From NCBI GenBank assembly GCA_020349885.1, contig CP070701.1, forward strand, positions 277,169 through 341,168: a DNA stretch of 64,000 nt. Reading direction: 5' to 3'. Under the pieces are notes generated by a model. That model worked only from the letters and a program-made list of their open reading frames with translations, had not been told where the DNA came from and searched no databases. This DNA comes from Acidobacteriota bacterium. Lineage in GTDB: Bacteria > Acidobacteriota > G020349885. Shown here one piece after another: positions 6,800 to 39,700 of this stretch (position 1 is its first letter; the number at the start of each line of letters is the position of its first letter). The position numbers and the translations under genes were made by a program.

Positions 6800-7519
6800 A
6801 TGACGCCTGCCATGAAGAAGAACACGCGGCGGCTCGCGGGGGCGATCTTGTTATGCGTCGGATGCAGCCGGATTCCCGCGCCCGACCTCGGCGAGTTTGA
6901 AAAGGCCGTCGTCAGGCAGTGCGGCGTCGCCCCGCAGACGGTCGAGCTCGGCGAGATCGAGATCGATCGCGAGCGAAAGGAAGCCGTCGTCCCGTTCACC
7001 GTTCCGGAGCTCCAGGAAGAGATTCGCTTCAAGGCGCGCTTCGTCTATCACGACTTCCGCGGCTGGGAGCTTGACGCCTGTTACGACCGCTTCGGCGGAT
7101 GGCTGCTGCCGGAGGTCTTCGCGGAGGAGATGGAATCGTTCCGCCTTTCCGATACGCGCACGCTTTTGTTCGTCGCGGGCCTGGCCGTGTCGGCGCATGC
7201 GATGGAACAGGGAGACCTCAAGGCGCGCCTTTCGGGAGCGGAATTGGCTGCCGCCCTTGAACCCCACTACCAGCGGTATCTGCCGGAATACGAAAAGGAA
7301 TTCTTCTTCCGGCCGCCGCGGAGCGCGCCGCAGCGCGACTTCTGGGGGCACCGCCTCACCTACGCGCTGGACATCCTCAACCCTTCGATGCTACCTTTTA
7401 ATTTCGAGGTGCGCTCGGTCGGCGCCGACGGAAACGCCGGCGGACGCGACGACCTTAGTTTCAGCCAGGCGCAGGACGGCGTTGTGGGCCCCTTGCGGAA
7501 CATCTGGTATCACCGCTGA
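6800..7519 (+). CDS. putative lipoprotein with a pseudopilin-like C terminus
   Basis: The 239-residue protein starts with a basic stretch and a hydrophobic segment ending LLCVGC, a plausible but imperfect lipobox. The middle is unrecognised. The C terminus, DFWGHRLTY followed by FEVRSVGADGNAGGRDDL, closely resembles the calcium-binding C-terminal loop of type II secretion major pseudopilins (DPWGxPY...SLGADGxxGG). The N-terminal pilin helix is missing, so it is not a pilin. The ATG at 6800 follows GGGGG closely; the ATG at 6812 is an alternative. The gene is divergent from the tetraheme gene. Confidence 0.65.
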   Translation: MTPAMKKNTRRLAGAILLCVGCSRIPAPDLGEFEKAVVRQCGVAPQTVELGEIEIDRERKEAVVPFTVPELQEEIRFKARFVYHDFRGWELDACYDRFGGWLLPEVFAEEMESFRLSDTRTLLFVAGLAVSAHAMEQGDLKARLSGAELAAALEPHYQRYLPEYEKEFFFRPPRSAPQRDFWGHRLTYALDILNPSMLPFNFEVRSVGADGNAGGRDDLSFSQAQDGVVGPLRNIWYHR

Positions 7520-7561
7520 GCGGGGTTTCGGGAGCCGGGATTGAGTTGGGAGAGAGGATGC

Positions 7562-7654
7562 GGAGAGGTACCGAAGTGGTTATAACGGGTCCGCCTCGAA
7601 AGCGGATGAACCCTTTACCGGGTTCCGTGGGTTCGAATCCCACCCTCTCCGCCA
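7562..7654 (+). tRNA. tRNA-Ser (CGA)
   Basis: A type II tRNA with acceptor stem GGAGAGG/CCTCTCC, a long variable arm (GAACCC...GGGTTCC), T-loop TTCGAAT and encoded CCA at 7652-7654. The anticodon loop CTCGAAA gives CGA (7597-7599), which reads UCG. The 3' end of this gene is repeated downstream. Confidence 0.95.
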
Positions 7655-7858
7655 TAACGGAGGTGCCGTGGCCCGCCTGCGGCGGGTAAAGCAAGCCCTG
7701 GGTGGGCTTGTCCGCCTGCGGCGGATTCGAATCCCACCCTCTCCGCCATAACGGAGGTGCCGTGGCCCGCCTGCGGCGGGTAAAGCAAGCCCTGGGTGGG
7801 CTTGTCCGCCTGCGGCGGATTCGAATCCCACCCTCTCCGCCATAACGGAGGTGCCGTG
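7651..7858. repeat. 94-bp tandem repeat carrying copies of the tRNA-Ser 3' end
   Basis: GCCATAACGGAGGTGCCGTGG recurs at 7651, 7745 and 7839 (period 94). Each full unit contains CCCGCCTGCGGCGGG, then GCAAGCCC...GGGCTTG, then CCGCCTGCGGCGG, all palindromic. It ends with ATTCGAATCCCACCCTCTCC, a copy of the T-loop and 3' acceptor strand of the adjacent tRNA. Each unit also has GGAGG-N4-GTG, so it repeats the start region of the following nuclease remnant. Confidence 0.9.
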
Positions 7859-7942
7859 GATGCCCAGCGCGGCTATTGCGCGTACGTTCTAGAGAGCAAA
7901 CGGAACGGGCGGTACTACATTGGAAGCACCTCCCGCGGGTAA
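7856..7942 (+). pseudogene. N-terminal remnant of a GIY-YIG endonuclease
   Basis: A 28-codon frame begins at GTG (7856) after a good GGAGG. It reads YCAYVLESKRNGRYYIGSTS before a TAA at 7940. This matches the start of small single-domain GIY-YIG nucleases, with the paired motifs (here CAY for GIY, and YIG) and the GST that follow. The remaining roughly 60 residues, including the catalytic Arg and Glu, are absent, so the protein is not functional. It lies directly behind tRNA-Ser, a usual neighbour of such nucleases in uncultivated bacteria. Confidence 0.75.
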
Positions 7943-8017
7943 CCGGAAGGAATTACCCCTTACCGGCTGGACTTGCCGGCCGCCGGGGGAGGTTGGCCAG
8001 GGAGCGGAGCCTTATGC

Positions 8018-8023
8018 TATACT
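8018..8023 (+). promoter_or_regulatory. possible -10 element of ftsH
   Basis: TATACT lies 21 nt before the ATG, with TTGGCC at 7993-7998 as a weak -35 (19-nt spacer). The gap between the nuclease remnant and ftsH holds nothing else. Confidence 0.35.
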
Positions 8024-8044
8024 AGTAAGATAAGGAAATTTTCT

Positions 8045-9937
8045 ATGCAAAGGCTGAAGACGCTTACCATCTGGCTCGTGCTGTTAATCGCGGTGCTCCT
8101 GGTGTGGCAGTATTTCGCCGATACGAAGCCCGCGCCGCTGTCTCTTACCTTCAGCGAGTTCCTCGCGGCGGTCGAGCGCAAAGAGGTCAAGGAGATAACC
8201 ATCGCGGGGGAATCGGACATCACGGGCACCTTTCGCGAAAACGAGAAAGCCTTCGCCACGATCGCGCCCCGCTACGACGGCCTGGTGGACCTCCTGCGCA
8301 AACACAAGGTCGCCATCACGGTCAAGGAAGAGAACACCGGGGTGTATTGGGGGCTCCTCTACACGTGGCTTCCCATCATCGTGCTCGTGGGGCTTTTCGT
8401 CTTTCTGCTGCGGCAGATGCAGGCCGGCTCCATGAAAGCGCTCTCGTTCGGAAAAAGCCGCGCGCGGCTCGCCTCGAGCGACCGCGAGCGCGTCACCTTC
8501 GCCGACGTCGCCGGATGCGAGGAGGCGAAGGATGACCTTTCGGAAATTGTCCAGTACCTGAAAGACCCGCAGAAGTTCCAGCGCCTCGGGGGAAAGATTC
8601 CCAAGGGCGTGCTCCTCGTCGGCCCGCCGGGCACGGGGAAGACGCTTCTCGCCAAGGCCGTCGCGGGGGAGGCGAACGTCCCGTTTTTCTCCATCAGTGG
8701 CTCGGACTTCGTCGAGATGTTCGTGGGCGTGGGCGCCTCGCGGGTGCGCGATCTTTTTGAAAAGAGCAAGAAAAACGCCCCCTGCCTCATCTTCATCGAC
8801 GAGCTGGACGCCGTGGGGCGCCTGCGCGGCGCGGGCCTGGGCGGCGGGCACGACGAGCGCGAGCAGACGCTCAACCAGCTCCTCGTCGAAATGGACGGAT
8901 TCGAGACGAACCTCGGCGTCATCCTTCTTTCCGCGACGAACCGCCCCGACGTCCTCGACCCGGCGCTCCTTCGCCCCGGCCGCTTCGACCGCAAGGTCAT
9001 CGTGGATATTCCCGACCTCCGGGGACGCACCGAGATCCTGAAGGTGCACACGAGAAAAGTGCCGCTCGCCCCCGACGTGAACCTGGAGACGATCGCCCGG
9101 GGAACGCCCGGCTTCACGGGAGCCGACCTGGCGAACCTCGCGAACGAAGCGGCGCTTCTTGCGGCCCGCCGCAACAAGGAAAAGGTCTTCATGACCGAGT
9201 TCGAAGACTCGAAGGACAAGGTCCTGATGGGAAGCGAGCGCCGCAGCCGCGTCATCAGCGACGAGGAGAAGCGCACCACCGCCTACCACGAGTCGGGGCA
9301 CACGCTGGTCGCCATGTCCGTCAAGCATGCCGACCCCGTGCACAAGGTGACCATCATTCCGCGGGGGATGGCGCTGGGCGTCACGCAGCAGCTTCCCGTC
9401 GACGACCGCCACACGTACAGCAAGGAGTATCTCGTGGACCGGCTCGCCGTCCTCATGGGCGGGCGGGCCGCCGAGGAGCTTTTTCTCGACCACCTGACCA
9501 CGGGCGCCCGCGACGACCTGGAGAAGGCGACGAGCATCGCGCGCGCCATGGTGTGCGAGATGGGGATGAGCGGACTCGGCCCCGCGACCTTCGGCCGAAA
9601 AGACGATAACGTATTCCTGGGGCGCGAGATCACCCGCATGGTGGACTACAGCGAGGAAACCGCGCGGCGCATCGACGCGGAAGTGCAAAAATTTTTAGGC
9701 GAAAGCTACGACCGCGCGAAGGACGTTCTGAACGAAAACCGCGAGACGATGGAGCGCATGGTGAAACATCTGCTGGAGCGCGAGACGCTCACGGCCGAGG
9801 AGGCCGCCGCCGTGGTGCGCGGTGAGGAGCTTCCTCCGCTCGAGGTCGCGGAGCCCGCTCCCGAGCCCGCACCGCAAGAGGCCGAAAAGCAGAAAGCCCC
9901 CGCGCCCGTCCTTACGCCTGCTCCCGCGCAAAAGTAG
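8045..9937 (+). CDS. ftsH: ATP-dependent zinc metalloprotease FtsH
   Basis: The 630-residue membrane AAA+ protease has two N-terminal spans (about residues 5-22 and 100-120) flanking the periplasmic domain. The AAA module has Walker A GPPGTGKT near residue 196, FIDELDAVG, and the second region of homology [18 protein letters not shown]. The M41 peptidase domain has HESGH near residue 415. It degrades unneeded or damaged membrane proteins as a hexamer in the inner membrane. The C-terminal 40 residues are a Pro/Ala/Glu-rich tail. The ATG at 8045 has AAGGA 8 nt upstream. It is followed after 24 nt by cdsA. Confidence 0.97.
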
Positions 9938-33719: not shown

Positions 33720-36700
33720 TTGAGGATACGCGTTCTATGGCTGGCAGCCGCTCTCGCTTGGGTGCCGTCCGTATGGGCATCGGGGGCAGAGCTTTCTTTC
33801 GAGGAGCGCCTTTACTACCAGGAGAGAATCGAGCGCGTCTATTACAACCACCGCACCGGCGCGAAGCCGCCTTTTGAGGAGACCCTTTCTCGGGAAACGC
33901 TGGCGAACAAGGTTGAAAAACATCTTCTTCAAAGCGCCCTCGTGGAGGAGCAGGCGCAGCGGGGAAGGAGCTATGCTTTGGACGAGGAGCGTCTCCAGCG
34001 GGAGCTTGAGCGAATCTGCCGCTCGACGAAGGCACCGGGCGTTTTGAAGGAACTTTTCGCGGCGCTGGACAACAACGCCTACCTCGTCAAAGAAATATTG
34101 GTGCGCCCCATCCTGGCGGAGAAGATGACGCGGGCGCTGTACCGGGGAGACGCGGAGTTTCATCGCCCGGAGCGGGAGAAGGCGGAGCGCATCCTGGACG
34201 AGGCACGCCTGATGAAGGGCGGACAGATGGAGGCGACGGCGAGGGTGCATGGGGCGGAGCATCTTCAAACGGCGTTGCGCGCCCTTCGTGACGCGTCCCG
34301 CCGTTTTCCTGAGGAGGCCGAAGGCCGTCACGAAGGGCGGCGGGACGCTCCTCAGGGACGCGGTGGGAACACCGTCGAAATTGAGCCGGACGAACTCGCA
34401 CGGCGGCGCGAGGAATTGAAAGGAACGGAACGGGCGCCCCGGATGCGTGAGACGGAGTCAGGGTTTGCCATTGAGCGGCTTCTGCCTTCTGAACCTTCTG
34501 AACTGGACGTTGAATCCATCCTCATTCGCAAGCGCCCCTACGAGGAGTGGTTTGATAAACAAGTTGGCGAGTTAGGGGTTGAGAGCTTAGGAGTTGGGGA
34601 GTTTTACGCCGAGCCATCCGAGCCCTCAACTTCGCAACTTCAAAGCTCCTCAACTCTTGACTCTCCCTGGGAGCCTTTACCCTCGCTCTCCCCGCTCCCG
34701 ACCTCCGATCCTTGCACGCCGGACTCGTGGGTGAACACGCTGGGGATTGCGGCCAGGGATGATCACACGGCCGTGTGGACCGGCTCGGAAATGGTAGTCT
34801 GGGGAGGAGGGTATTGCGGACTTGGGTGTACTTTTGATACCGGAGTGCGCTACGACCCGTCGACTGATACGTGGTCGGCGACCTCGACGGCGAGCGCGCC
34901 ATCGGCACGGGCACGGCACACCGCCATATGGACGGGAACGGAGATGATCGTGTGGGGAGGACAGACCAACGTCACTTATTTCAACACGGGCGGACGGTAC
35001 GACCCAATCGCGGACACGTGGACCGCGACCACGACGACGGGTGCGCCTTCGGGCCGCCGCTACCACACGGCCGTCTGGACAGGGACGGAGATGATTGTCT
35101 GGGGAGGCGATGACGATGCACCTGGCTTCTTTGACGACGGCGGGCGGTACAATCCCGCGACGGACTCGTGGACCGCGACGTCCACTGTCGGCGCCCCTCT
35201 TGCGCGACAGGAGCACACAGCCGTCTGGGCCTCCGGAATTCTCACTCCCGTGATGGTCGTCTGGGGCGGCTGGGACGTAAACACCTCCAACAGCGGCGGC
35301 TTCTACGACCCTGCGACGGATACATGGACGGCCACCTCGATGGGGGGCGTTCCTTCCGGTCGTTACAAGCACTCGGCGGTCTGGACCGGCTCGGAGATGG
35401 TCGTCTACGGCGGCATTGAATACCTCTACGATACGCTTGGATGCATAGAACCCGTATTCTTCCCCGCCTACGGAGAGACTTCGACCGGAGGAAAGTACGA
35501 TCCCTCCACCAACAGTTGGTCTTCTATGCTGTCGGCTCCCTTGACGCCCCGCTCGGAGCATACGGCGGTCTGGACCGGGACAGAAATGATCGTGTGGGGC
35601 GGCCGGATCTATGCGGGCGGGTTCTGTCCGTACAGTTATGACTGCTACTGTGACGTCTGGTATCACGGAGACGGGGCCCGCTACGATCCTGTTACGGACG
35701 CATGGAACATAACCTCCCCGACGGGCGCGCCCGACGCCCGTGCCCGGCATACCGCCGTCTGGACGGGCTCAGAAATGATCGTCTGGGGCGGATACTACTA
35801 CGCGGGAGGTTTTAATCGCACCTATCACACGGGCGGCCGGTATGACCCTTCGGCGGATACGTGGATTCCCATGGTGAATACCGGTCCTTCACCGCGAGAC
35901 AGCCACACTGCGGTGTGGACGGGGGCCGAGATGATCGTGTGGGGAGGCAAAGGTAGCAGCTCTCTTTCTTCTACGAACACCGGCGGACGCTACGATCCTG
36001 CGCTCGACGTTTGGCTGGATACCTCGCTCACGGGCGCTCCCTCCATGAGGCGCTTTCACACCGCCGTCTGGACCGGGACGGAAATGATCGTGTGGGGAGG
36101 ATACGGCGGTCTCGTGGGAGGAGCGAAAGATGATGGGGGATGCTACGATCCGCTCTCGGATTCATGGACGAGCACCTCAACCACGAACGCGCCGTCCGCG
36201 CGCTACTACCACACCGCCGTGTGGACGGGAACGGAGATGATTGTTTGGGGTGGCTTTGGATGTTCTGATCCTCCTACATGCTTGCTCACCGCCTACCTCG
36301 ACACCGGCGGACGCTACAACCCTTCGACGGACAGCTGGACGGCCACGGGCACGACGGACGCGCCGTCGGCGCGCTACCGCCACACGGCGGTGTGGACGGG
36401 AACGGAGATGATTGTTTGGGGTGGCTTTGGATGTTCTGATCCTCCTACATGCTCGCTCACCGCCTACCTCGACACCGGCGGACGGTACGATCCGGCGACG
36501 GACAGCTGGATGGCGACCTCGACCGCAAGCGCACCCACGGCCCGCGAATACCACACCGCCGTGTGGACGGGAAACGAGATGATCGTATGGGGAGGATACG
36601 ACGGAACGGCCTCGCTGGATACGGGAGGGCGGTACCAGCCTTCAACAGACTCATGGGCTCCAACTTCGCTTGTCGGAGTTCCCTCGGCGCGCTCTTCCCA

Positions 36701-39700
36701 TACGGCAGTATGGACTGGCAGCGAAACGATTGTGTGGGGCGGAGGAACGGATACGGGCGGCAAATACAGCCCTTCCGCGGACAGCTGGGCACCAACGTCC
36801 ACCGTGAACGCGCCGGTGCCTCGCTCTAAACACACGGCCACTTGGACGGGCGCGGAAATGATCATATGGGGCGGAACGCTTGCGACGAACTCGATGGGAC
36901 TCTATACACCGGACTGCCCGGCAATCTGCGTCCCGCTTCCGACACCGTCGCTTCAAACGCCCCCGAGCGGCGTAACCGTTACGTCCTCCACTGTCCCCCT
37001 CCGGTGGTACGATGTGCTCGGCGAAACCGGCTACGAGTGGCAGGTGTTCAACGACATGTGCATCGCGGACATCGCCGCGAGCGGGACGACGAGCGTGAAC
37101 CAAGGAAGTGCCGACGTTCCCCTCGCTGACGGCGACTATTTCTGGAGAGTGCGAGCCATAGGGGACGGCACATGGTACTGCGACAGCGGTTGGTCGGAGT
37201 GCCGCGGCTTCACCGTGTTCGCCTGCGCGCCGGAGGACGGCTACGAGGAGAACGACACGTCCCCGCTTGCGTCGTCTCTCAGCGTGGGGGAGACGCAAAG
37301 CCACTCCCTCTGCGACCAGGACTGGCTGCGCTTTTCCGCGGACGCGGCCAAGACCTACGAGATTCGAACGCTCAACCTTACGGGCGGCGCCGATACGCTC
37401 ATCGAGCTCTACCGCTCCGACGGGGTGACGCTGGTGGACTCGGACGACAACGGAGGCGGCGGCTTGGCGTCGCTCATCACTTGGACGGCCGACGAGACGA
37501 GCGATTTCCTTGTCCGCGTGCTGGAGCCCGCAGGCGCGTACGGAAGCGGCAAGGGCTACGACGTTCAGCTTACGTGCGTCGCCAATTGCGGTGCGGGCCG
37601 CGGCTGCTGGAAAGATACGAAGGTTTCCGCGCCCTCACCGCGCTACGGCCACACCGCGGTTTGGACGGGCTCGGAGATGATCGTCTGGGGGGCGGCGGGG
37701 GACTCCTCCGGCGGGCGCTACGACCCTTCCACGAAAACATGGACGCCTACGTCTCTCATCGGAGCGCCCTCTCCAAGATCCGATTTCACCGCCGTCTGGA
37801 CGGGCTCGGAGATGATCGTCTGGGGAGGAGACGGGGGAGCAAGTGGTCGGTTAGACACGGGAGCACGGTACGATCCTTCCACGGATACTTGGACCCCGAC
37901 GTCCACGGTCGGCGCGCCTCCGGCTCGCTACTACCACACGGCCGTCTGGACCGGAACGGAGATGATCATCTGGGGAGGATTCGGTCCTGGAGCGGGTGAC
38001 ACGGGAGGACGATACGACCCTGCGACGGATACCTGGGCGCCTGTTTCCACGACGAATGCGCCATCCTCCCGACGCGAGCATACGGCAGTGTGGACCGGCA
38101 CGGAGATGGTTGTCTGGGGCGGCTACGACGGAAGTTTCCTGGACACGGGCGGACGCTACAACCCTGCCACGGACACATGGACGGCGACCTCGACCGTGGG
38201 TGTTCCAACCGGGCGCTACAAGCACACGGCCGTCTGGACGGGGACGGAAATGATCGTCTGGGGCGGCTACGACGGAAGTTTCCTGGACACGGGCGGTCGC
38301 TATGACCCTTCCACCGACACGTGGACGGCGACCACCATGACCGGCGCTCCCTTCGCGCGCGAGCGGCACAGCGTCGTTTGGTCCGGAACGGAGATGATCG
38401 TGTGGGGCGGTTACAACAATACCGGGCCTTGGCCTTATCGACGGAACGACGGTGCGCGCTACAATCCGGCGACCGACTCCTGGACGGCCACGACCATGAC
38501 GAACGCACCTTCCATTCGCTCCGACCACACGGCGGTGTGGACGGGGACGGAAATGATTGTCTGGGCGGGTGACTGGGGGGGCTCGAACAGCGGCGCGCAC
38601 TACGACCCCGCAACGGATTCCTGGATTGAGATGCCCCGCTATGGTGTTCCCGAGCCGCGTTGGATAGACGGCGCCGTGTGGACGGGCACGGAGATGATCG
38701 TGTGGGGAGGATACAGTATAGGCAATCGCCTCGACACGGGTGGAAGGTATGATCCTGCAGCAGATTCTTGGACCGAGACTGCCGAATCAGGAGCTCCCTC
38801 GGCACGTTCGAGTCATTCCACCATATGGACGGGAACGGAGATGATCGTCTGGGGCGGGTACGACGGTTCAACCGAAGTGGACACGGGCGGACGGTACGAC
38901 CCAATCACGGACTCATGGCAAGCCACGTCTACGGCGGGTGCCCCGGCGGCACGTTTGAGTCATTCCGCCGTCTGGACGGGGACGGAGATGATCGTTTGGG
39001 GTGGATACGACACGGTGGGTTTGACGGACACGGGTGGACGGTACGACCCGGCGACAGACACCTGGCAACCTATGTCTACGGCGGGCGCGCCGAGTGCGCG
39101 TGCTCGTCACACCGCCGTGTGGACGGGCACGGAGATGATTGTCTGGGGCGGCTACGGCAGCAGTCCTAGCTACAAAAATGACGGCGGGCGCTACAATCCC
39201 TCGACGGACTCATGGACGCCCGTCACTCTGGTGGACGCTCCGATGGGACGACACTACCACACGGCGGTCTGGACGGACACGGAGATGATCGTCTGGGGCG
39301 GCTCCGATTCCAGCGACCACTTCAACAGCGGTGGACGTTACGATCCAACCTCGGATTCGTGGGCCGCTACGCAGCTGTTTGGCGCTCCATCCGAACGCGA
39401 CAGCCATTCAAGCATCTGGACGGGGAAGGAAATGATCGTCTGGGGCGGCAGCATGGGCTCCGAAAGATTCAACGACGGCAGCCGTTACGATCCCGTCACG
39501 GACACGTGGAAATCCCTACCTACGGCGGGTGCTCCGTCGGCCCGGTATAACCATGCGGCCGTGTGGGCCCCCGAATACGGGCAAATGATCGTTTGGGGAG
39601 GAGGCACGTCGTCACGCTCTTTCGACAGCGGCGGCGTTTACACCTTGCCCCCCGACGTTCCAACGATTTCCTGTCCCCCGACGGCATGCGTCGGGACGCC

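Follow-up and report, generated by a model that had tools for sequence, protein, structure and literature searches.

Why should the 3' end of a transfer RNA gene be written out three times in a row, at a spacing that does not shift by a single base? Repeats of tRNA ends beside tRNA genes have been known since tyrT of E. coli and, to our knowledge, have no general explanation. The case considered here lies in a stretch of 64,000 nucleotides from an Acidobacteriota genome, within a single contig of 2.4 Mb (the whole stretch is hereafter 'the window', and positions are counted from its first letter). A sequence-only reading had proposed that a homing-type or mobile unit targeted the end of a tRNA-Ser gene, restored it on each insertion and left palindromic debris behind. 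Here, we argue that the array is probably the decayed, tandem form of a minimal tRNA-anchored cassette carrying a GIY-YIG nuclease.

The array begins with an intact tRNA-Ser(CGA) gene with encoded CCA at 7562..7654 of the forward strand (ARAGORN; 57.6 bits against the Rfam tRNA model). tRNA is the sole valid Rfam family between 7400 and 8100; sX4 and a plastid family were rejected, both matching below threshold and lying within the tRNA or the repeats of its 3' end. Exact string searches on the same strand place a 40-bp unit, TTCGAATCCCACCCTCTCCGCCATAACGGAGGTGCCGTGG, at 7632..7671, 7726..7765 and 7820..7859, separated by a 54-bp insert, CCCGCCTGCGGCGGGTAAAGCAAGCCCTGGGTGGGCTTGTCCGCCTGCGGCGGA, at 7672..7725 and 7766..7819, every copy letter-perfect and the spacings 94 and 94 bp. 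The unit spans the tRNA 3' part from T54, a spacer, GGAGG and GTGG, ending just past a GTG start, so that copies two and three are pseudo tRNA 3' ends; the insert consists of three hairpins (CCCGCC-TGC-GGCGGG, TAAAGCAAGCCC-TGGGT-GGGCTTG and TCCGCC-TGC-GGCGGA). Each unit holds a GGAGG-N4-GTG start region (7659, 7753 and 7847), and in the first two the frame opened by the shared GTG enters the palindromes and then the next tRNA end. The third GTG, at 7856, starts VDAQRGYCAYVLESKRNGRYYIGSTSRG*, a nuclease remnant of 28 codons and a stop that ends at 7942. The sequence-only reading had described just this arrangement, from the three evenly spaced ends, their CCGCC/GGCGG modules and their start regions to the single GIY-YIG N terminus behind the third, and each element of that description was borne out. 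The exact self-match within the array reaches 134 nt, far beyond chance, and because the two 94-bp units are identical, the final step, if no other, must have been a duplication. A whole nuclease is absent from every unit of the array.

Residues 7-26 of the remnant align to positions 2-21 of the Pfam GIY-YIG domain (E = 0.003), corresponding to its first 20 residues. In this profile search the match scores 18.4 bits, below the curated cut-off of 22.6 for PF01541, a shortfall that arises because the domain is cut short after position 21. A whole-genome GIY-YIG search again detected the remnant, weakly, as one of four matches alongside an intact gene ~140 bp behind the tmRNA, a UvrC-sized protein and one weak, different match with no adjoining tRNA. 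Both small GIY-YIG genes or fragments of the genome sit behind RNA genes, namely tRNA-Ser and tmRNA. The tmRNA-linked gene scores 52.7 bits, above the PF01541 cut-off; its flanking repeat is a 35 bp palindromic sequence without a tmRNA end. A tmRNA-linked nuclease used as query had no match among phages (tblastn) or plasmids. The palindromic stretch between this gene and the tmRNA (L001, 1348-1488) recurs once at another site of the genome (L192, ~900-1080), where neither tmRNA nor nuclease is present, and similar leaders occur behind tmRNA in other families.

The layout of the array is not confined to tRNA-Ser(CGA). At least seven of the 48 tRNAs in the genome are flanked by partial copies of their own end with palindromes. 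In five of these, Ser(CGA), Thr(TGT), Asn(GTT), Asp(GTC) and Glu(TTC), palindromes precede a displaced 3' copy, the order being tRNA, leader, palindrome, TAAAG core, palindrome and second copy of the tRNA's own 3' end. The first base of this copy is T54 at Thr, Asn and Ser; at Asp and Glu it is about C61, on the 3' side of the T stem. At tRNA-Thr(TGT), which carries the same insert core as the array, CCA is missing from the proximal copy and present in the distal one; Leu(GAG) follows the same CCA pattern with a shorter distal match. The other two tRNAs, Ser(GGA) and Ser(TGA), have an upstream 5' copy whose anticodon arm holds a palindrome; 5' halves precede the tRNA, in tandem or singly, at L139 1600-1858 (Ser(GGA)) and on the reverse strand of L128 (Ser(TGA)). 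A search for further 94-bp units, as had been suggested, thus gave a divided answer: the layout recurs at other tRNAs, but genome-wide the exact unit, like the exact 54-bp insert, is found at the array alone.

The association between GIY-YIG genes and RNA genes extends across the phylum. From a search of 396 genomes, 70 high-scoring GIY-YIG loci were read, a top-scoring set rather than a random sample, and 11 of them had a T-arm (GGTTCRANYCC) on the same strand within 350 bp upstream, against a mean of 0.095 after shuffling; the same motif in antisense orientation was found near none of the 70. Together with the tmRNA-linked gene of the source genome, these loci upheld the expectation that GIY-YIG genes would be found behind other RNA genes, and siting beside an RNA gene is recurrent, as expected of a free-standing, SegB-like homing endonuclease. 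Seven loci are linked to tmRNA (L308, L351, L352, L354, L358, L368 and L374, with the tmRNA of L308, L351, L352, L358 and L368 identified by eye from its 3' end) and four to tRNA: L327 and L370 to tRNA-Asn, L337 to tRNA-Glu and L372 to another tRNA end. L339, additional to the 11, has two pseudo tRNA-Asn ends, which escaped the strict motif. In five tRNA-linked loci, direct repeats containing tRNA 3' parts bracket the nuclease (L337, 183 bp at 91% identity; L339, 93 bp at 97%; L239, 90 bp at 83%; L370, 78 bp at 96%; L327, 39 bp at 100%), whereas loci without an adjoining RNA gene have direct repeats of at most 28 bp, and L355, L360 and L354 have repeats of 20-28 bp only. Among the tmRNA-linked cassettes no clear displaced tmRNA end was found downstream, with a weak one in L354 only. 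The displaced tRNA-Asn of L327 and L239 keeps its D arm, and a palindrome stands where the anticodon stem-loop should be; in L370 the part lost to a palindrome is the 5' strand of the anticodon stem with some of the loop, and upstream there is another 5' copy that bears a palindrome. In L339 (G197), the palindrome TCCCGCTGCGGCGGGA abuts T54 and runs into TTCGAG, near-identical to the window junction, where TCCGCCTGCGGCGGA runs into TTCGAA; in L337 (G284) the copy begins at C61, like those of tRNA-Asp and tRNA-Glu in the source genome.

Could the palindromes themselves be the agents of this pattern? REP- or MITE-like palindromes might have inserted beside tRNAs, duplicating 14-40 bp of target, with the nuclease remnant an unrelated neighbour. 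The 54-bp insert is indeed flanked by 40-bp direct repeats, and the form CCCCG-N-CGGGGTAAA belongs to a dispersed family, with 19 matches in the source genome against none in a reversed control and a background level elsewhere in the phylum; many copies are intergenic, as expected of REP/MITE-like elements. The insert core GTAAAGCAAGC-N-GCTTGTCC had no match in 395 genomes of the phylum and 30 scattered matches in 85k GTDB genomes, none of them near a tRNA, so the insert sequence is lineage-specific. Palindromes of this kind are dispersed over many non-tRNA sites of the genome and hence are not purely debris of a nuclease unit. The earlier view of them as such debris is qualified accordingly. 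Given relatives away from tRNAs, the inserts may be independent invaders; they may be repeats for which pseudo-tRNAs are tolerated landing sites, or they may be part of the unit. As an account of the array, however, palindrome insertion is unlikely: by eye, no duplications are evident at palindromes away from tRNAs, the tRNA junctions fall at fixed positions (T54 and C61), and in other families GIY-YIG genes are bracketed by the same tRNA copies. The genome has further repeats. At 2757-2910 of the window, a palindrome, CCCCGCCCCCTGGGCGGGGTAAA, stands ahead of a tandem repeat of 51 bp (GGTTCGTTCCTAGGG...CGCACTTGGTA), with kindred blocks at ~1207590, 1548206 and 1570448 of the same genome (G000:C1) forming a dispersed mosaic repeat family, and 36183-39156 contains several tandem repeats of 144-171 bp (~77-85% matches) that possibly encode a repeat protein.

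Alternatively, the tRNA end might simply have been duplicated in tandem by slippage or unequal exchange, as at E. coli tyrT, without involvement of a nuclease. The two identical 94-bp units would suit such a process, as would tyrT/tyrV of E. coli K-12, where the last 19-20 nt of tRNA-Tyr are repeated downstream, mostly every 178 bp. Yet we regard plain duplication as improbable, for it leaves unexplained both the statistical link of GIY-YIG genes to the 3' ends of tRNA and tmRNA and the repeats that bracket nuclease genes. A downstream 3' copy was present at two of 130 control tRNAs, taken from three genomes in the phylum; one of the two belongs to a tRNA-Asn/GIY-YIG array (G046). Here, an intact tRNA-Asn is followed by a GIY-YIG frame, a partial tRNA-Asn with a palindrome within its anticodon arm, and a GIY-YIG N terminus once more; the GIY-YIG copy scores 32.9 bits, above the PF01541 cut-off.

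A tree of 72 GIY-YIG domains, indicative given its short alignment of 82 columns, placed the RNA-linked nucleases mainly in three small groups, separate from most stand-alone GIY-YIG proteins: L358, L368, L352, L374 and the source genome's own gene with L224 (SH-aLRT 96), L351, L354, L372 and L308 (SH-aLRT 90), and L370 with L339 (SH-aLRT 96); L327 forms a long branch. The L327 nuclease had two distant GIY-YIG homologues only among plasmids and no match among viral contigs. Two contigs from viral collections (L378 and L379) encode close GIY-YIG relatives immediately after what look like displaced 3' ends of tmRNA and tRNA-Ser, read by eye as CACCGCCTCCA and CCTCTCCGCCA, with a palindromic leader. 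This position behind RNA ends hints that the cassettes are able to travel on larger elements. The arrangement on both contigs resembles prophage attachment sites. That the repeats are scars of integrase-type islands or prophages attached at RNA genes, with the nuclease as cargo beside the att site, is very improbable despite these two contigs and a regenerated target with displaced fragment that matches the island signature (Islander, PMC4383910), because complete bacterial cassettes (L327, L370, L337 and L339) hold the nuclease as sole gene between the copies, are too small for an integrase and contain none, and the start of the copy varies among several tRNA positions.

We return, then, to the tRNA-anchored nuclease cassette, for which phage T6 offers a precedent. 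Its free-standing GIY-YIG homing endonuclease SegB cuts within tRNA genes with a preference for RAWTSGAAC, and its activity gives rise to tandem repeats of tRNA and C-terminally truncated segB (PMC13096335). On the opposite strand the preferred site reads GTTCSAWTY, a T-arm sequence, and it is present in 8 of 14 T-arms beside nucleases compared with about one third of all tRNAs, a weak enrichment that is only suggestive. The arrays of the window and G046 look like such a SegB product after decay, and it is this resemblance that leads us to propose a tRNA-anchored cassette with break repair. Such a cassette would join the 3' part of a tRNA or tmRNA gene to a short leader, often palindromic, and to a small free-standing gene encoding a GIY-YIG nuclease. 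By analogy with SegB, its nuclease would cut in or beside the RNA gene, and repair of the break by recombination or end-joining would install the cassette or duplicate it in tandem. Because the RNA's 3' end forms part of the cassette itself, an intact RNA gene would stay upstream and a displaced partial copy would come to lie downstream. Selection would keep the intact tRNA while extra copies decayed and gathered palindromes; in the window, the nuclease would have been truncated after 28 codons and replaced by palindromic repeats in the two upstream units. From the arrangements described we infer that RNA genes are cleaved and that the cassette is mobile, and likewise the sequence of events and the palindromes' role. 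Flanking partial 3' copies are the trace expected of a unit that targets and rebuilds an RNA 3' end, and so the homing-type unit first suggested gains from these copies, with their palindromes, and from 11 of 70 loci where 0.1 would be expected; against it, the exact unit occupies a single site and the nuclease of the window is dead. Tandem segmental amplification, as in SegB, would account for the array no less well than the repeated insertion originally envisaged.

Whether the cassettes form a wider class is an evenly balanced question. Such a class would consist of integrase-free mini-elements of ~0.4-0.6 kb, widespread in bacterial chromosomes, in which a GIY-YIG gene with a palindromic leader inserts at tRNA or tmRNA genes, rebuilds their 3' end, leaves a partial copy disarmed by a palindrome and decays into arrays like that of the window. 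If true, the tRNA/tmRNA-anchored cassette would provide a general explanation for repeated tRNA ends, carry SegB-type biology beyond phages into bacterial chromosomes, and add a mobile element below the size of most insertion sequences, together with a set of compact nucleases whose flanks reveal their targets directly.

Chromosomal tRNA/tmRNA-GIY-YIG cassettes are not described in the open-access literature that we searched, although four known systems share some of their features, SegB the most closely. As with SegB of T-even phages, a GIY-YIG nuclease adjoins tRNA genes, and the array combines a repeated tRNA end with a truncated nuclease, which recalls the SegB product; SegB, however, is phage-borne and multiplies the tRNA at full length, and no displaced, partial tRNA ends bearing palindromes have been described for it. 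Repeats at E. coli tyrT (tpr/RttR) likewise place the tRNA 3' end in downstream tandem copies, but in a region without an annotated GIY-YIG gene, and RttR had no Rfam match at 7400-8100 of the window. Islander-type islands at tRNA and tmRNA genes also rebuild their target and leave a displaced fragment downstream, but bear a tyrosine integrase where the cassettes have only a GIY-YIG gene of ~80-100 codons. Lastly, REP and Rickettsia palindromic elements are, like the palindromes described here, short, GC-rich and dispersed within one genome, and the Rickettsia elements sit in tmRNA too (PMC2229807); unlike either, window-type palindromes stand at fixed tRNA positions, beside duplicated tRNA ends and nuclease genes.
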